Shown: positions 14,069 through 21,576 of the stretch, piece after piece
Position numbering within the stretch: position 1 is the stretch's first letter
How the letters are laid out: the number at the start of each line of letters is the position of its first letter
Assembly (NCBI RefSeq): GCF_000012985.1
Contig: NC_007645.1
Location: 5,044,581-5,108,580 of the forward strand
From: Hahella chejuensis KCTC 2396
GTDB taxonomy: Bacteria; Pseudomonadota; Gammaproteobacteria; Pseudomonadales; Oleiphilaceae
Length of the DNA stretch: 64,000 nucleotides
Reading direction: 5' to 3'
The notes under the pieces: generated by a model
The model's input: the letters and a program-made list of their open reading frames with translations, nothing else
The model's database searches: none
What the model was told of the DNA's origin: nothing
Position numbers and translations under genes: made by a program

Positions 14069-15406
14069 TTGGCAAGCATATTGCTCGTGGACGACGATGA
14101 AGGTTTTGTACAAGCCACGCGGACACTCCTTGAAATGCTGGGGCATGACGCCCGCTCCGCCGCCAGCGTCGCTGAAGCCAACGCTATTCTGCAGGCGAAT
14201 CAATTCGATATCGTATTACTTGACCTGATGCTTCCTGATGGAAGCGGCCTGCACGTGCTGGACGCCCTCAATGGCTCCCGCAAGCAACCCGGCCACATCG
14301 CGATCGTCACAGGCCACCCTACCGTAAAATCGCTGGTGAAAACGGTCTGCGGCCCCAACATCAGTTATTTGATCAAACCCATTGATATTGAGCAGATAAA
14401 AGCGCTGATCGAAAAGACCAGCCCGGAGCTGTCGGAAGTTGACGCGCCCCGCCACTTCAACAGCCTGATTGGCGAATCGCCGGCCATGCGCGAGCTTTAT
14501 CAGATGATCGAGCGCGTCGCTCAAACCAGAGCCAACGTGTTGCTGCAAGGCGAAAGCGGCGTCGGCAAAGAACTGGTCGCCCGCGCAATCCATGCCGCCG
14601 GGGGCTCTCAAGGGCCATTCGTGGCGGCCAACTGCGGCGCGCTTTCCCGAGAGCTAATCGGCAGCGAACTGTTTGGACATGAAAAAGGCTCCTTTACCGG
14701 CGCAGTCAGCAGAAAAATCGGTCTATTCGAACAAGCCAAAGGCGGCGTGCTGTTTCTCGACGAAGTCACTGAGATGCCAATCGACATGCAGCCAACTTTG
14801 CTGAGAGTACTGGAAACCAACAAAGTCATCCGAGTCGGCGGCGCCGAAGAAATTCCTGTGGATTGCCGAGTGGTTTCAGCCACCAACCGCACCCAACAAC
14901 AGCTGGCGGAAGACGAATGCCTGCGTGAGGACATCTACTTCCGTCTGGCCGTATTCCCCATTCAGATTCCGCCTTTGCGGCAGCGCCGGGAAGATATTCC
15001 ACTATTGGCCAGACGCTTCCTGCAGGAGCTGAACGAAGAGAATGGCTCCGCTTTCGGGCTGGGGGAGAACAACCTTAAACGACTGCAGGATTACGACTGG
15101 CCAGGCAATGTGCGCGAGCTGCGTCACGCTATTCATCGCGCGTTCATTATGACTGATCCAGCTCAATCCGAACTGAGCCTGCCGGACAATCTCGCCTCGC
15201 CTTTCGCCCGCGAGCGACAAGGCTCCCCCGGACTGCAGGTGGGCAAGACCATAGAGGAGATGGAGCGCGAGCTTATCACCCTCACCCTCGCCCAATTGGA
15301 TGGCGACAAGCGCCGCGCGGCGGACATGCTCGGCATCAGCTTGAAAACCCTCTATAACCGCCTGAACAGCTATGGAGAGAATGAAAACACGGAAACGCCC
15401 GTATAA
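14069..15406 (+). CDS. NtrC-family sigma-54-dependent response regulator
   Basis: 445 aa with a TTG start preceded by GAGGG. Domains: receiver (about 1-120; acidic pocket DDD at 8-10, phosphoacceptor Asp52 in LLDLMLPDG, Lys near 103 in YLIKPID), AAA+ ATPase (about 135-370; Walker A GESGVGKE near 161, Walker B GGVLFLDEV) and a Fis-type helix-turn-helix (about 400-440; DKRRAADMLGISLKTLYNRL). The sigma-54 contact loop reads GSFTGA where most family members have GAFTGA, a known variant class. It would open sigma-54 promoters when phosphorylated. It heads a cluster of kinases and receivers, and a perfect sigma-54 promoter lies 4.4 kb downstream at 19819. Confidence 0.92.
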   Translation: MASILLVDDDEGFVQATRTLLEMLGHDARSAASVAEANAILQANQFDIVLLDLMLPDGSGLHVLDALNGSRKQPGHIAIVTGHPTVKSLVKTVCGPNISYLIKPIDIEQIKALIEKTSPELSEVDAPRHFNSLIGESPAMRELYQMIERVAQTRANVLLQGESGVGKELVARAIHAAGGSQGPFVAANCGALSRELIGSELFGHEKGSFTGAVSRKIGLFEQAKGGVLFLDEVTEMPIDMQPTLLRVLETNKVIRVGGAEEIPVDCRVVSATNRTQQQLAEDECLREDIYFRLAVFPIQIPPLRQRREDIPLLARRFLQELNEENGSAFGLGENNLKRLQDYDWPGNVRELRHAIHRAFIMTDPAQSELSLPDNLASPFARERQGSPGLQVGKTIEEMERELITLTLAQLDGDKRRAADMLGISLKTLYNRLNSYGENENTETPV

Positions 15407-15439: not shown

Positions 15440-15661
15440 ATGACCCAGGAAGCCGATATCGCCAAATTAGCGCACGACCTCCGCAATCCGTTGAACAGCA
15501 TTTCAGTGAATGCGGAACTGGCCAAGCTCCAGCTTCAGACCAACCGCGACAAGGAAGAAATCCTGGTGTGCGTGGAGCGCATACTGGAAGAATGCAAACG
15601 CTGTAGCGCGCGCATCAACGACTTGGTCAACGCCAGCGCAACGGATGCGGATAATGCCTAA
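15440..15661 (+). CDS. Stand-alone histidine-kinase dimerisation/phosphoacceptor (HisKA) mini-protein
   Basis: 73 aa only. Almost the whole protein is a DHp/HisKA helical hairpin: H-box LAHDLRNPLNSISVNAELAKL near residues 10-30, then a second helix (EEILVCVERILEECKRCSARINDLV). There is no ATP-binding domain, sensor or membrane segment. A good ribosome site (AGGA, 7 bases before ATG) and tight placement (33 bases after the regulator, 8-base overlap with the next kinase) argue it is a real gene. It might act as a phosphotransfer intermediate or dimerise with a partner kinase; both are inferences. No obvious frame connection joins it to a catalytic domain: the downstream kinase is in another frame and carries its own H-box. 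Confidence 0.8.
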   Translation: MTQEADIAKLAHDLRNPLNSISVNAELAKLQLQTNRDKEEILVCVERILEECKRCSARINDLVNASATDADNA

Positions 15662-17156
15662 CAGACTTCTGGATCACAGTCCAATATTGCTGAGCCGGCG
15701 CTGGCGTTTCGCCTTCGCCGCCGTGTCGTTGTTGCTGGTCGTCAACGGACTTACTTCCTACCGCGCCATGCGCGAGTTGGTGCAGATCGAGAGCAGCGTC
15801 TCCCATACCTTGCAGGTGATCGGCATTATCAAGAACACCTTCTCCGCCATACAAGGCGCAGAAACCGGTCAACGGGGCTACCTGATCACTGGCGATGAGG
15901 CCTATCTTGAACCTTTTCATGACGCCATGAATTCGCTGGAAATCTATCTTAACCAACTGCAGGCGACCAACTCAGAAATACCGGGACAGCAGGAGCGCTT
16001 TCTACGCCTTCGCCAAGTCACCCAGAGCAAGATCAGCGAAATGCGCGAGGTCATCCAGTTGCGTAAGAACCGCGATCTGGAAAGCGCCACGGAAATCGTG
16101 AACACGGACAAAGGCAGGCGCCTCATGGATATCATCAGCAAGCTGGTGGAGGAAATGGAGGCCGAAGAATATGCGCTGCTGACGCAGCGACGCCATGAGT
16201 CCTATTTGAATCAGCGGGAAACTATTTTCACCCTGGTGGCCGCCACACTGACCAGCCTGGGACTGATTGGCTTTGTTTACTACCTGTTGCAGAGAAATCT
16301 CCGCCAGCACACACGCATCACCGAGATTCTGCAGACAGAGAACGACCGACTGGAGGAAAAAGTCTCCGAACGCACAGCCGTGCTGACCCACTTCTCCAAA
16401 GAGCTTGAACGCAGCAATCGGGAGCTGCAGGATTTCGCCTTTGTCGCATCCCATGACCTGCAAGAGCCGTTAAGAAAAATTCGCGCGTTTGGCGACCGCC
16501 TGCAACAAAAATACGCCGACAAGCTGGAAGACAGCGGCGCCGACTATATTCGGCGCATGCAATCCGCCGCAGAGCGCATGTCGCGCCTGATTAACGACCT
16601 GCTTTCATTTTCCCGGGTTTCCACCAAGGCGCAGCCCTTCACGCAAGTGGATTTGAACGAAATACTCGACGAAGTGCTGGAAGATCTGGAGATCACTATT
16701 AATGAAAGCGGCGCTGTGATAGACGCCTCGCCTTTGCCAACGCTGGACGCGGACCCCACGCAAATGCGCCAGCTCATGCAAAATCTGATTGGCAACTCAT
16801 TGAAGTTTATTCCTCCTGAACAGAAGCCGCGAATCACCATCAGTGTGAAGCGCTACCATCATTCTCTGCTGGAAGGAGGCGTGGAAACGGAGTGGTGCGA
16901 GCTCCGTTTCAGCGACAACGGAATCGGCTTTGACGAAAAGTTCAAAGACCGGATTTTCACCCCTTTCCAGCGCCTGCACCAGCGCGGAGAATATGAAGGA
17001 ACCGGCATAGGGCTGGCAGTATGCCGTCGCATCGTTGAACGCCATAGCGGCGCCATTAACGCCGAAAGTATTCCCGGACAAGGCGCCACATTCGTTGTGA
17101 ACCTGCCGCTACAGCATACGCCTATTTCTGAAATGGAGCCTGAACAATATGCCTGA
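15654..17156 (+). CDS. Membrane histidine kinase with CHASE3 sensor
   Basis: 500 aa from the ATG at 15654 (the frame is open further upstream, but that part overlaps the preceding gene). Two membrane helices (about 15-35 and 189-211) bracket a periplasmic CHASE3 domain (IKNTFSAIQGAETGQRGYLITGDEAYLEPF). A short coiled linker leads to HisKA with the H-box SHDLQEPLRKIRAFGDRL (His about 266) and a HATPase_c domain (N-box LMQNLIGNSLKF, GIGFDEKF, GTGIGLAVCRRIVE). The DLQEPLRKI form is the phytochrome-like kinase subclass, which usually pairs with Rcp1-type receivers such as the next gene. Start overlaps the mini-HisKA gene by 8 bases, so translation is probably coupled. The ligand is unknown. Confidence 0.9.
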   Translation: MPNRLLDHSPILLSRRWRFAFAAVSLLLVVNGLTSYRAMRELVQIESSVSHTLQVIGIIKNTFSAIQGAETGQRGYLITGDEAYLEPFHDAMNSLEIYLNQLQATNSEIPGQQERFLRLRQVTQSKISEMREVIQLRKNRDLESATEIVNTDKGRRLMDIISKLVEEMEAEEYALLTQRRHESYLNQRETIFTLVAATLTSLGLIGFVYYLLQRNLRQHTRITEILQTENDRLEEKVSERTAVLTHFSKELERSNRELQDFAFVASHDLQEPLRKIRAFGDRLQQKYADKLEDSGADYIRRMQSAAERMSRLINDLLSFSRVSTKAQPFTQVDLNEILDEVLEDLEITINESGAVIDASPLPTLDADPTQMRQLMQNLIGNSLKFIPPEQKPRITISVKRYHHSLLEGGVETEWCELRFSDNGIGFDEKFKDRIFTPFQRLHQRGEYEGTGIGLAVCRRIVERHSGAINAESIPGQGATFVVNLPLQHTPISEMEPEQYA

Positions 17157-17607
17157 CACCAAGAGACCTCTGGTCATTTTAATGGCGGATGATGACGAAG
17201 ATGATCGACAGCTTGCACTGGAAGCCATGCGCGAAAGCCGCGTGCTGAATGAACTTCGATTTGTGAAGGATGGTCTTGAATTGATGCAGTACCTGCGTCG
17301 GGAAGGCGAGTTTGAAGATCCCGCCAGCTCGCCGACTCCCGGCATTATACTTCTGGACCTGAACATGCCCCGCAAAGACGGCCGCGAGGCGTTGGCGGAG
17401 ATTAAGGCGGACCCGGCGCTGCGACGCACGCCGGTCGTCATTCTCACCACATCGAAAGCAGAGCAGGATATGCTGCGCGGCTATGATCTGGGGGCCGCGT
17501 CATACATCACCAAGCCGGTGACATTTGAAGGCCTGGTTGATCTCATGCGCGCACTGGGGCATTACTGGGTCGAATTCGTGGAACTGCCCTGCCACGACCA
17601 TTATTAA
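17149..17607 (+). CDS. Receiver-only response regulator (Rcp1-like)
   Basis: 152 aa, one REC domain and no output domain: acidic pocket ADDDEDDR, phosphoacceptor in GIILLDLNMPRKDG, Thr in VILTTSK and Lys in YITKPVTF. The longer loop before the phosphoacceptor and the LNMPRKDG motif are typical of Rcp1-type partners of phytochrome-like kinases. The ATG lies within ATGCCTGA, overlapping the kinase stop by 8 bases. It presumably passes phosphate onward or titrates the kinase. The last codons and stop lie inside the dispersed repeat that begins at 17600. Confidence 0.9.
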   Translation: MPDTKRPLVILMADDDEDDRQLALEAMRESRVLNELRFVKDGLELMQYLRREGEFEDPASSPTPGIILLDLNMPRKDGREALAEIKADPALRRTPVVILTTSKAEQDMLRGYDLGAASYITKPVTFEGLVDLMRALGHYWVEFVELPCHDHY

Positions 17608-17698: not shown

Positions 17699-19657
17699 AT
17701 GACAGAGAACCAGACCAGCTTCCCCACGCCAATAAAGTTATTACTGGTGGAAGACGACGAAGATGATTACATCATCGCCAAGGATCTGCTGGAGCAGATT
17801 GCGCCCTCTCAGTTCGAGCTGGACTGGGCCTGCAACGCAGAAGTCGCTCGCACCGCCCTGGCCAGAGACGAGCACCACGTCTGTCTCATGGACTACCGGC
17901 TGGGACCGGACGACGGACTGAAGCTGCTGCGCGAAGCGCCGAAACTCGGCTTCCACGGCCCGATCATCATGCTTACCGGCCAGGATGACAGCCGCCTCGA
18001 CGCCGATGCTCTCCGTGGCGGCGCTGTGGATTATCTAGTGAAATCCGACCTGAATTCCGCCCATTTGGCGAGGGCCATTCGTTATGCGTTGGCGCGCAGG
18101 GAGATGGAGACGGAGAGGCTGGTGAGACTGAAGGCGGAGGCGGAAAACCGCTCCAAAAGCGAGTTTCTGGCGCATCTCAGTCATGAGTTACGCACGCCGC
18201 TGACCGCAATTCTCGGTTATACGGAACTGCTCATCGCCCAGAACAGCATCCCGGATAACTTATCTCATTTACAGATCGTCCAGCGTAATGGGCAGCACCT
18301 GTTAAGCTTGCTCAACGATATTCTGGATATTTCCAAGATTGAAGCAGGCAAGCTCGAAATGGAGTTTGTGCGCGTTAACCTACAGACATATCTGGCCGAC
18401 CTCTATTCTCTGATGGCGGTGTCCGCGCGGGATAAAAATCTGCAACTGCGATTCATTGCAGATATGCCTCTGCCGGAAAATATTGAGACTGACCCCATCC
18501 GCCTGCGCCAGGTCTTACTGAATCTGATCGGCAACGCCATCAAGTTCACCGAGCAGGGCGAAATCATCGTCCGGGTGCAGATGATCAAAGAGGAAGAACA
18601 GGAAAAAATCCAGTTCAAAGTAATTGATACCGGCCCTGGCATAAATCAAACCGACCAGAAACGCCTTTTCCAGCCATTCACCCAGGCATACGCCAATAGC
18701 ATACGCCGTAGTGAGGGCGCTGGGCTGGGGTTAGCCATCAGTCGTCAGTTGGCGCAACGCCTCGGAGGAGATATTCGGCTGAGCAGCCAGCCGGGAAAAG
18801 GCAGTGAGTTCACCGCCATTGTGAAACCCGGCCCTTTGGGAGGCGTTAAGCGCATCCAGCCCGACCTGGAAACCGGAGGCGCGGAGCAGGCTCACGCCAC
18901 ACGCAAGCATCGAGTGCAGGGTCACATCTTGGTAGCCGATGACCTACAGGATATTCGCCACCTTATCGGCCACTTGGTGGAAAACGCCGGAGCGCAGGTC
19001 AGCTATGCGGAGAACGGCGCCGAAGCGGTGCGTATGGTGACCGATGCAGCTCAGTCGGACACGCCCATCGACTTAGTCATCATGGACATGCATATGCCGG
19101 TGCTGGATGGGCACTCCGCCACCCGCGAACTGCGCCGTCGAGGACACGAAATCCCAGTGCTGGCGCTGACTGCCGCCACGATGCGCGGAGAACGGGAACG
19201 CTGCCTGGCTAGTGGCTGTACGGATCACCTGAGCAAGCCGGTCAACATCAATCAGCTATTCACCCTGATCGAGCGTCATCTGTCGCACCCGCAAGTTAAA
19301 ACGCCGACGTTATTACTGGTGGAGGATAACCCCGACGCCAGCGCCGCGACCGCCGCTCTGCTGGAACATCTGGGGTGGCGAGTGTTTTGCGCGGGAAACG
19401 GGGCGGAAGCGCTGGAGCTGGCGGAGCGAGTAAAACCTGCTGCAATCGTTTTGGATCTCAACCTACCAGATACCGACGGCTACACGCTAGCTCAAGAAAT
19501 ACGTGAGAAAGGGCTTCCAGACGCCCACCTTATCGCTTTGAGCGGCTGCGCGGAAGACAAAGGCCGTTCTGCAGAGGCGGGGTTTCGGCGCCACCTGATG
19601 AAGCCCGTATCCATGGGCGAACTCACAGCTGTCCTTCCCGCTAAAAACTCACTCTGA
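17699..19657 (+). CDS. Soluble hybrid histidine kinase, REC-HisKA-HATPase-REC-REC
   Basis: 652 aa with no membrane segment. Domains: REC1 (about 10-130; VEDDEDD, phosphoacceptor in CLMDYRLGPDDG near 64), HisKA (SHELRTPLTAILGYTELL, His about 162), HATPase_c (about 265-385; NLIGNAIKFTEQG, DTGPGI, GAGLGLAISRQLA), REC2 (about 415-530; Asp near 462 in IMDMHMPVLDG) and REC3 (about 535-650; Asp near 586 in VLDLNLPDTDG, Lys in HLMKPVSM). Lacking a sensor, it is probably driven through REC1 by another kinase, making it an integrator. It ends the cluster and is followed by a terminator. Confidence 0.92.
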   Translation: MTENQTSFPTPIKLLLVEDDEDDYIIAKDLLEQIAPSQFELDWACNAEVARTALARDEHHVCLMDYRLGPDDGLKLLREAPKLGFHGPIIMLTGQDDSRLDADALRGGAVDYLVKSDLNSAHLARAIRYALARREMETERLVRLKAEAENRSKSEFLAHLSHELRTPLTAILGYTELLIAQNSIPDNLSHLQIVQRNGQHLLSLLNDILDISKIEAGKLEMEFVRVNLQTYLADLYSLMAVSARDKNLQLRFIADMPLPENIETDPIRLRQVLLNLIGNAIKFTEQGEIIVRVQMIKEEEQEKIQFKVIDTGPGINQTDQKRLFQPFTQAYANSIRRSEGAGLGLAISRQLAQRLGGDIRLSSQPGKGSEFTAIVKPGPLGGVKRIQPDLETGGAEQAHATRKHRVQGHILVADDLQDIRHLIGHLVENAGAQVSYAENGAEAVRMVTDAAQSDTPIDLVIMDMHMPVLDGHSATRELRRRGHEIPVLALTAATMRGERERCLASGCTDHLSKPVNINQLFTLIERHLSHPQVKTPTLLLVEDNPDASAATAALLEHLGWRVFCAGNGAEALELAERVKPAAIVLDLNLPDTDGYTLAQEIREKGLPDAHLIALSGCAEDKGRSAEAGFRRHLMKPVSMGELTAVLPAKNSL

Positions 19658-19818: not shown

Positions 19819-19834
19819 TGGCACAGCTGTTGCT
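19819..19834 (+). promoter_or_regulatory. Sigma-54 (RpoN) promoter
   Basis: TGGCACAGCTGTTGCT matches the -24/-12 consensus TGGCAC-N5-TTGCW at every conserved position. It lies about 60 bases before the start of the DUF2383-type gene, with an AT-rich stretch upstream where an activator could bind. The expected start site is about a dozen bases downstream of the -12 GC. Confidence 0.8.
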
Positions 19835-19896: not shown

Positions 19897-20340
19897 ATGA
19901 TGACTAAATCAGAAACAAACAGCTTGAGAGATCTGGTTAAGGTGCTTAACGACGGCATTGACTTCTATACGGAAGCCAAAGACAAAGTGAAGAGCAATGC
20001 GGTGCGCTTGGTGTTTGAGCGCATGTCAGCCATTCGCGAAGGCGCGGTAGGCCGGTTGCAGCCCTACATCGTCTTCGAAAAAGGCGAAAAAGAGACCGGA
20101 CATACTCTTGGCGGCATTCTGCGTGAGCAATACGCCAAAATCCTTGCCTCTATCAAGGATAATTCAGAACACGTGTACATTGAGCAGCTGGAAGAAGTCG
20201 AGGATAAAACCCTGGAAAAAATCCGCGACGCCATCGAGGAAGTGAAGGCTCCCGGCGTTCAGGCCACACTGCAGGATATCTATCCAACCTTGAAGCGTTG
20301 TCACGACGAAATGAGCCGCCTGCAGCGCACCACTGCGTAA
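19897..20340 (+). CDS. PA2169/DUF2383-type four-helix-bundle protein
   Basis: 147 aa, soluble, all helical. The pattern LRDLVKVLNDGIDFYTEAKDKV with a later HDEMSRL is that of the DUF2383 (ferritin-like fold) family, whose function is unknown and which is often tied to stress or envelope conditions. GAGGAG precedes two adjacent ATGs (19897 and 19900); the second has the better spacing. A perfect sigma-54 promoter lies upstream, and the nearest NtrC-type activator is the cluster head at 14069, so control by that cluster is a reasonable guess. The gene stands alone between the terminator at 19681 and the HD-domain gene. Confidence 0.75.
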   Translation: MMTKSETNSLRDLVKVLNDGIDFYTEAKDKVKSNAVRLVFERMSAIREGAVGRLQPYIVFEKGEKETGHTLGGILREQYAKILASIKDNSEHVYIEQLEEVEDKTLEKIRDAIEEVKAPGVQATLQDIYPTLKRCHDEMSRLQRTTA

Positions 20341-20457: not shown

Positions 20458-21576
20458 ATGGCCCAACCATCCCCTCTCCCCTATTTTCCTGCAACCACTC
20501 TCAGGCCAGACATACTGTCGGACTTGCGTGAAAGTTTCGAAAAAAATCTGGTAGAGCTGGAAGCCACACCCAATGACGCCTCACTGATCGCTCGACTCTG
20601 CGCGAATTATGAAGCCATCGCACAGGAAATAAAATTTGCGGAAATCGAGCTAGGATCATTGATGCAAGGCGTTTACACCATCATGGCCGGCATTGCCGAC
20701 AAGCAACTGATCTTCCGTCCGGAAATCAGTGACTTGCTATTGCTGGCGATGGAGCGCATACAGGTTTGCGCCGTCGCTATCGATAGCGGCAGTTTCGAAA
20801 ACATCCAAATGGTGGAGAACGCCAGAATCAGCGATCTCCTCTGCCAACTCCCCAAGACGGTCGCGAACGGTCGCAATGAGGCCATGCAGGAGCTTCTGGC
20901 GCTACTCGCCCCGGAAGTCAGCGCGCAAAGCGCGGGACGCAGTGCGAATGACGTTTATTCCGAGCTGCTGGCGTTGTGGCGCAAGTACGATGTCCACACC
21001 AACGCAGACCTGCTGTTCTTCCTTAGTCTCGCTACGCCAGCCGAAGCGCGATCTCGATTTTGGCTGGGTAAAAATCGACGAGTCCTATTACTGGCTCTGG
21101 CAATGAACCGGCATGCACGCGAGCCAGTGGACCCCGCTCAGCTTAGCGCCGCCGCTCTGGTTCATGACATAGGCATGTCCTTTCTTCCCCTGGATATCCT
21201 GCACAAGAGCAGCAGTCTCTCCGAGTCCGAGGACCATAGCATTCATAAACATACCGGCGTGGGTAGCGCCCTGTTGATCAACATGCCTGAGTGGCAAGAG
21301 TCACGCCGGATTATTGACCAACATCATGAGCATGTCAGCGGCAAGGGCTACCCTATCGGACTGCGGGACCGTGAAATCTGCGACGGAGCAAAAATCATCG
21401 CCATCGCCGACGCTTTCGAAGCGATTTCTCATCCCCGTATCTATTCCAGTCGCTTTAAACGGCCTTTTATCAGAGCAGTGCTGGAAATCAACAGCCGCTC
21501 CGGCAGCCAGTTCTCACAAAAATGGGTGGATGTGTTCAACGCCGTCATCAGACCACTGAAATACGAGTTATACTAA
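20458..21576 (+). CDS. HD-GYP-like domain protein (possible cyclic-di-GMP phosphodiesterase)
   Basis: 372 aa, soluble. The N-terminal 160 residues are helical and unrecognised. The C-terminal half is an HD-GYP-type module: HDIG (His about 236), a following His in HKHTGVG, and HHEHVSGKGYP (about 289), then AKIIAIADAFEAISHPR. Differences from the usual motif are HDIGM for HDIGK and GKGYP for GSGYP, so activity on cyclic-di-GMP is possible but not certain. A PilZ protein at 59396 shows the organism uses this messenger. Followed by a weak hairpin. Confidence 0.78.
   Translation: MAQPSPLPYFPATTLRPDILSDLRESFEKNLVELEATPNDASLIARLCANYEAIAQEIKFAEIELGSLMQGVYTIMAGIADKQLIFRPEISDLLLLAMERIQVCAVAIDSGSFENIQMVENARISDLLCQLPKTVANGRNEAMQELLALLAPEVSAQSAGRSANDVYSELLALWRKYDVHTNADLLFFLSLATPAEARSRFWLGKNRRVLLLALAMNRHAREPVDPAQLSAAALVHDIGMSFLPLDILHKSSSLSESEDHSIHKHTGVGSALLINMPEWQESRRIIDQHHEHVSGKGYPIGLRDREICDGAKIIAIADAFEAISHPRIYSSRFKRPFIRAVLEINSRSGSQFSQKWVDVFNAVIRPLKYELY

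Follow-up and report, generated by a model that had tools for sequence, protein, structure and literature searches.

A short HisKA gene in a two-component operon

The window, i.e. the whole stretch of 64,000 nucleotides that was analysed, contains an operon in which a protein of 73 residues, made up of a HisKA dimerisation and phospho-acceptor (DHp) hairpin, is encoded between the gene of an NtrC-type sigma-54 response regulator on its 5' side and the gene of a CHASE3 sensor kinase on its 3' side (Table 1). Such a HisKA-only protein without a catalytic domain, lying between a sigma-54 regulator and a full kinase, had been proposed in a preliminary description of the DNA, and Pfam confirmed both the domain content and the position. 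The HisKA family PF00512 matched residues 7-66 (E 4e-12, 46.4 bits vs a gathering cut-off of 26.9), leaving only 7 residues after the match, and was the sole Pfam family at E up to 1; accordingly, neither a HATPase domain nor the HPt domain PF01627 was found in the protein at this threshold. The CHASE3 kinase gene begins at an ATG inside the hairpin gene, so that the two share 8 bases at the 3' end of the latter, and coupled translation, also part of the preliminary description, is therefore plausible. The C52xxC55 pair, the single-domain receiver and the sigma-54 promoter had not been mentioned there.

Table 1 The lone hairpin gene, its operon and the adjoining sigma-54 promoter in the window.
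Feature	Position	Strand	Evidence
NtrC-type sigma-54 response regulator (REC, Sigma54_activat, HTH_8), proposed partner	14069..15406	+	Pfam; receiver Asp52, Thr81, Lys103
Lone HisKA/DHp protein, 73 aa	15440..15661	+	ATG 15440, TAA 15661; helices 3-34 and 38-72 in the model
His12 codon, presumed phospho-acceptor	15473..15475	+	52/52 sequences; HK853 His260 if helix 1 is ungapped
Codons 52-55, C-K-R-C motif, helix 2	15593..15604	+	C52xxC55, both Cys in 45/52
CHASE3-HisKA-HATPase sensor kinase	15654..17156	+	Pfam; shares 8 bases with the hairpin gene
Single-domain receiver (REC), proposed to carry phosphate to the hairpin	17149..17607	+	Pfam; phospho-Asp 42/42
Hybrid kinase REC-HisKA-HATPase-REC-REC	17699..19657	+	Pfam; three receiver Asp and His 42/42
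Sigma-54 (-24/-12) promoter, TGGCACAGCTGTTGCT	19819..19834	+	sole zero-mismatch TGGCAC-N5-TTGCW site in 64 kb
DUF2383 protein, likely target of the regulator	19897..20340	+	Pfam E 5e-30; 62 bases past the sigma-54 site

The open frame of the hairpin gene comprises 78 codons and is the only HisKA-bearing frame under 362 aa in the source genome (7,215,267 bases, one contig); all the others of the 67 HisKA matches at E ≤ 0.01 lie in frames of at least 362 aa. NCBIfam gave only weak matches far under the cut-offs, nearly all of them kinases, and the matches to PHROGs were likewise weak, the best one (E 6.6e-7) belonging to an unnamed family. Sequence searches of the PDB found nothing better than E 0.049 with a hairpin profile, and only weak kinase matches with the single hairpin sequence (best E 0.016). 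The H-box of the hairpin, HDLRNPLNSI, differs from those of the operon kinases, SHDLQEPLRKI and SHELRTPLTAI, for which reason we rejected a recent copy of one of these kinases as its origin. The H-box HDLQEPL of the CHASE3 kinase itself has a Glu at H+4, not Thr or Asn. Kinases of the HDLQEPL type that adjoin single-domain receivers presumably recall the Cph1-Rcp1 pair.

Allowing up to two mismatches, we found 20 sigma-54 promoter sites in the window vs a mean of 41.6 in its shuffles, and because the window holds fewer such matches than its shuffles, only the perfect site was used. Within 46 loci of relatives (606,456 bases), a search that allowed one mismatch and kept GG/GC fixed gave 46 sites, vs 5, 5, 8, 13 and 12 sites in five single-base shuffles of the same loci; they include sites before DUF2383 genes (L009, L151) and before a gene for an OmpA-domain protein (L070). 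The DUF2383 gene of the window is probably a target of the NtrC-type regulator, judging from its place behind the promoter. It is followed by a gene for an HD-GYP-type (HD_5) protein (20458-21576), which is also present in Hahella sp. HN01 (L009). Genes beside the operon in two other relatives (L011:1045-4253 and L070:3130-6040) encode BON, AI-2E transporter, OmpA-type and DUF883 proteins, the last of these below the cut-off. These neighbours suggest a role in envelope stress, and our guess, which is based on them, is that the output of the system concerns envelope or general stress.

Distribution and gene order of the hairpin family

Relatives were sought by one scan of GTDB contigs and by whole-genome searches of overlapping samples of the order (390 genomes), of two families (144 genomes of the family of G057, which includes Cellvibrio, and 15 of the family of G098), of the class (369) and of the phylum (398). 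After removal of the duplicates L072, L123, L124 and L125 and of the false locus L157, short lone hairpins were found in 53 genomes of four families, corresponding to 52 distinct proteins including that of the window. These genomes are the window's own, Hahella sp. HN01 with an identical hairpin, 40 of the 144 in the family including Cellvibrio (of the 41 that gave a match, one has just a kinase), 4 of the 15 in f28 and 7 in f185; the order search lists 17 further genomes from the family of the window, none of which has a short hairpin. Counted from the longest start, the 52 proteins have 62-91 aa. The remaining matches lie in frames of at least 287 aa in the whole-genome searches and, apart from L044, of at least 334 aa in the contig scan. 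Such long-frame matches were excluded from the family (G486, the second of G516, the second of G194, G600, G723, G728, G825, G599 and those of the phylum search), the second G516 match and those of the phylum search by frame length alone, and most of the others after inspection of their sequences. Judging from the coordinates, the stops flagged within the matches of G118, G504 and G126 are the normal ends of these genes. The exception L044 (5702-5959), from a Holophagaceae MAG, is another lone HisKA frame of 85 aa from its ATG, with the H-box HDLRNPLNS and no CxxC; by eye, no two-component genes adjoin it.

An NtrC-type gene lies upstream of the hairpin gene in 52 of 52 loci, at a gap of at most 285 bases, and the complete order NtrC, hairpin, CHASE3 kinase, receiver, hybrid is present in 47 of them. 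The preliminary description had called for a search for orthologues beside NtrC-type regulators, and from this outcome the partner of the hairpin is best read as the NtrC-type regulator. As for the five other loci, the single-domain receiver is missing between the kinases of L010, L154 has the order receiver, NtrC, hairpin, hybrid without a CHASE3 kinase (best match to this kinase in its genome: 200 bits), and L135, L144 and L147 comprise just the NtrC and hairpin genes, the next gene being on the opposite strand. In the genomes of the last three (G513, G514 and G515) a genome-wide search for equivalents of the operon kinases gave no comparable match: the best hybrid matches reached 277-285 bits vs 709 bits at the intact locus of G516, and the best CHASE3 kinase matches 135-161 bits vs 461 bits; a receiver gene is absent from their NtrC-hairpin cluster. 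Since NtrC and hairpin are kept together in three genomes where both operon kinases are absent, they look like the core pair of the system.

Within the family of G057, an NtrC match at E ≤ 1e-130 was obtained for 37 of the 144 genomes, each of which belongs to the 40 with the hairpin; in the other three of these 40 the NtrC gene is in two frames (two genomes) or is a 421-aa frame beside the hairpin (one). Throughout the order, NtrC matches at E ≤ 1e-120 occur in 12 of 390 genomes, 11 of which have a short hairpin. The twelfth, G003, has an NtrC protein 49% identical and, immediately upstream, a protein of 296 aa (L159:2963-3850) that bears the same hairpin in its middle (E 1.9e-10 among the ORFs of the locus). 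Pfam HisKA was below its cut-off there (E 0.033), no ATPase domain was recognisable at E up to 10, and a PDB search with the protein found nothing relevant, so that it may be a kinase that has degenerated or a relative of larger size; the only other genome of the family of G003 did not yield a protein of this type. Split frames were seen for NtrC in L130 and L138 and for the hybrid in L130 and L216, which could reflect sequence error or decay. L138 and L216 come from single-contig genomes, one of the two split-NtrC loci thus belonging to such a genome (G409), and the hairpin is intact in both L130 and L138.

Conserved residues and related proteins

His12, Arg15, Asn19 and Glu26 are each present in all 52 sequences and Lys29 of helix 1 in 49. 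The motif of the window copy, HDLRN, is textbook, and the copy has the acid adjoining the presumed phospho-His that is a feature of sensor kinases; in the family, this acid at H+1 (position 13) occurs in 37 of 52 sequences and is absent in 15. Asn at H+4 (Asn16) is found in 45 of 52, the others having Lys (5), Gly (1) or Ala (1); these are all seven f185 members, each of which still has His12. The CxxC of helix 2 is formed by C52 (47/52) and C55 (50/52), both being present in 45 of 52. C52 is missing from exactly those five members that carry Lys16, and the two features are therefore partly linked by descent. As a control, the best 30 of the 67 HisKA matches of the source genome all have the acid, and none has a CxxC at H+30 to H+55; the latter also holds for a second set, 46 HDLRNPLN boxes taken from loci outside this genome (0/46; L014-L059, leaving out L044 as a lone hairpin itself), which were chosen by H-box and are thus a control for the Cys pair but not for the acid.

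The hairpin gene is under purifying selection: dN/dS was 0 to 0.18 in 11 of 13 close pairs, and synonymous sites were saturated in two. A conserved H-box and an intact gene in close relatives were the two points on which the preliminary description had staked its case, and His12 in 52/52 together with an intact short gene under selection answers both. The same data (52/52 and dN/dS 0 to 0.18) refute a kinase remnant, and the Pfam match together with 52 distinct short proteins of this kind rules out a spurious ORF. Alignments of the partner proteins cover 46 loci, six further loci of the 52 lying outside them. Asp52, Thr81 and Lys103 of the NtrC receiver are present in 44 of 44 aligned rows (L130 and L138, where the gene is in pieces, were left out). 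The Asp of the single-domain receiver, the three receiver Asp of the hybrid and the checked H, N and G box residues of the CHASE3 kinase are each present in 42 of 42 rows; here, absent genes and the hybrid of L130, also in pieces, were left out of the 46.

The AlphaFold monomer model of the hairpin (five rows) has two helices, with a mean pLDDT of 90.8. Foldseek placed HK853-RR468 complexes on top, rank 1 with a TMq of 0.78 but an E of 0.089, and gave no match at E 0.001; VIA-align paired model residues 1-72 or 1-73 with HK853 249-321, yet its list was full of two-helix structures that are unrelated and score a similar Z (best 9.6). The match in fold taken alone therefore shows little. If helix 1 is ungapped, His12 would fall on the catalytic His260 of HK853 and Asn16 on Thr264. 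Unlike the hairpin, HK853 of Thermotoga is a complete kinase that includes a catalytic domain; in its DHp domain H260 is catalytic, T264 is required for phosphatase activity, for which the E/DxxT/N motif matters, and the isolated DHp fragment can bind its receiver in a complex (PMC5727384).

With the dimeric histidine phosphotransferases ChpT of Caulobacter and Spo0B of Bacillus, the window protein shares a helical hairpin with a (here presumed) phospho-His and without a working kinase domain. ChpT is described as a four-helix bundle formed by dimerisation, without autokinase activity, that acts between kinase and regulator and has an atypical ATPase-like C-terminal domain (PMC3433190), and Spo0B is named a degenerated kinase (PMC5898713), whereas the window protein has nothing past the hairpin. 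Spo0B was not among the structure matches listed for the model, and ChpT (4fmt) stood low in the Foldseek list (rank 38, E 1.2). PhyT (PhyP) of Sphingomonas, part of the relay Pak-SdrG-PhyT-PhyR, resembles our case in that kinases, a single-domain receiver, a kinase-derived His protein and an output regulator come together (PMC5898713). It is, however, membrane-anchored, with a putative periplasmic sensor, a degenerated ATPase domain and an HRxxN motif, and its output is the release of an alternative sigma factor through NepR (PMC5898713), unlike the sigma-54 activator of the window. The protein has the helical hairpin and the invariant His of Spo0B, ChpT and PhyT and, like them, no working kinase domain (no HATPase match), and it lacks their ATPase-like C-terminal domain. 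As the protein ends after the hairpin, we say that it would work like these proteins without filing it among them.

HmrB of Caulobacter is a putative atypical HPT of 108 aa with a helical hairpin and a predicted four-helix-bundle dimer, whose gene adjoins hmrA and hmrC and of whose His residues two are each needed; the part of the report available mentions no HisKA motif and no meaningful Foldseek match (PMC11481889). In domain content (HisKA, no HATPase, no REC) the window protein also falls under the 'phosphotransfer proteins' of P2CS, defined as HPT or HisKA proteins without a HATPase or receiver domain (PMC2716373), of which Azospirillum brasilense CBG497 has one with HisKA (PMC4618731). 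This class is a bioinformatic bin and not a family, and the available parts of these sources tie no mechanism, CxxC or NtrC link to it. Hence the HisKA-only bin, dimeric hairpin phosphotransferases and a hairpin-only candidate (HmrB) were known from these reports; new, as far as the literature searched shows, are the hairpin family, its association with a single NtrC-type regulator and its CxxC. No study of lone HisKA/DHp proteins of this family or of the hairpin operon was found in that search, outside of which most subscription journals lie; on cysteine switches in the dimerisation domains of kinases it turned up one paper.

A proposed relay to the sigma-54 regulator and its alternatives

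We favour, with moderate confidence owing to the three kinase-less genomes, that the lone hairpin is a minimal histidine phosphotransferase which feeds Asp52 of the NtrC-type regulator. Two hairpins would dimerise into a four-helix bundle like that of a kinase DHp domain. The two operon kinases would charge a receiver domain, most simply the single-domain receiver or else one of the hybrid, from which His12 would take the phosphoryl group and pass it to Asp52; the regulator would then activate sigma-54 promoters, the one before the DUF2383 gene among them. The hairpin would thus be the second His of a His-Asp-His-Asp chain that ends at the regulator. The computed basis is the monomer fold, the invariant His, the lack of a catalytic domain, the partnership in gene order and co-occurrence, and the purifying selection. 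The His is kept throughout the family, vs 37 of 52 for the acid and 45 of 52 for the Asn, and hence also where residues of kinase and phosphatase chemistry are not. An invariant His with such relaxed residues is expected of a pure carrier, which is why we place the hairpin as second His. Further points for the relay are the regulator upstream in every locus and the hairpin in all 37 genomes with a strong NtrC match in the family of G057, the invariant receiver residues of the regulator, the low dN/dS of the hairpin gene, and the case of G003, which has no short hairpin but the 296-aa hairpin protein beside its NtrC gene. The operon kinases and the conserved receiver would, moreover, make up a chain that misses only the second His carrier, and the published Pak-SdrG-PhyT-PhyR chain has the same layout (PMC5898713). 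Against it count L010 without the single-domain receiver, L130 and L138 with a split NtrC gene beside an intact hairpin gene, and the textbook HDLRN motif of the window copy itself. The proposed donors are also not essential to the pair, since G513, G514 and G515 keep it without the operon kinases and without a receiver gene in the cluster; these genomes would fit an unlinked donor, or a second role of the hairpin as phosphatase or sequestering partner.

Because most members have both the acid and the Asn, phosphorylation by a kinase or phosphatase activity is possible for these. A dedicated phosphatase is in our view unlikely. In this reading, His12 and Asn16 would serve to dephosphorylate the regulator in the manner of the phosphatase motif found in HisKA kinases. 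It would account for the pair being kept where both kinases are missing, and it is in line with the Asn at H+4 in 45 of 52 and with the reported roles of the E/DxxT/N motif and T264 and the HK853 DHp-receiver complex (PMC5727384), but all seven f185 members have Lys, Gly or Ala at this position with the His still kept, and 15 of 52 lack the acid that belongs to the motif. Quite improbable, to our mind, is that the hairpin binds the unphosphorylated regulator and holds it off until a signal arrives, with phosphate chemistry being secondary. PhyT is proposed to sequester PhyR as a second role, no phosphatase activity having been detected in that study (PMC5898713), and the constant regulator gene upstream and the strong conservation of helix 1 past the His (N19 and E26 in 52/52, K29 in 49/52) would suit such a binder; a pure binder, however, has no need of an invariant His.

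That the hairpin serves an operon kinase in trans, as phospho-acceptor or heterodimer partner, or as a decoy or inhibitor by dimer exchange, is suggested by the 8-base gene overlap in the window and the five-gene order in 47 of 52 loci. We consider this very unlikely: the hairpin occurs in three genomes without these kinases and in one more without the CHASE3 kinase, its H-box is unlike both of theirs, and the H+1 acid is missing in 15 of 52. The preliminary description had offered a phosphotransfer relay or a dimer-exchange inhibitor. The relay part stands, with phosphotransfer as its presumed chemistry, while the absence of both kinases and the receiver gene from 3 of 52 loci is evidence against an inhibitor of those kinases. 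To a degraded kinase remnant or a spurious ORF, which the shortness of the protein and its being made of a kinase domain only might suggest, we give next to no credence, given 52 distinct sequences with an invariant His and a dN/dS of 0 to 0.18.

If the proposed phosphotransfer to the regulator is true, a dimeric histidine phosphotransferase can be made from some 70 residues and would rank with the smallest known relays of its type; the job could then be done without the dead ATPase domain that Spo0B, ChpT and PhyT carry, and the hairpin would offer a clean system from nature in which to test this. The single-domain receiver and the kinase pair, otherwise without output, would gain one. Natural variants at H+1, H+4, C52 and C55 are available for separating transfer from phosphatase chemistry.

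From the spacing of hydrophobic residues we estimate that C52 and C55 fall in the core register of helix 2. A dimer could then gather four thiols roughly two helix turns from the phospho-His, and it is conceivable, though doubtful, that the hairpin is a redox- or metal-gated phosphotransferase in which thiol oxidation or metal loading switches the phosphate flow to the sigma-54 regulator. If this were true, a carrier without a sensor domain would become a cytoplasmic sensor.
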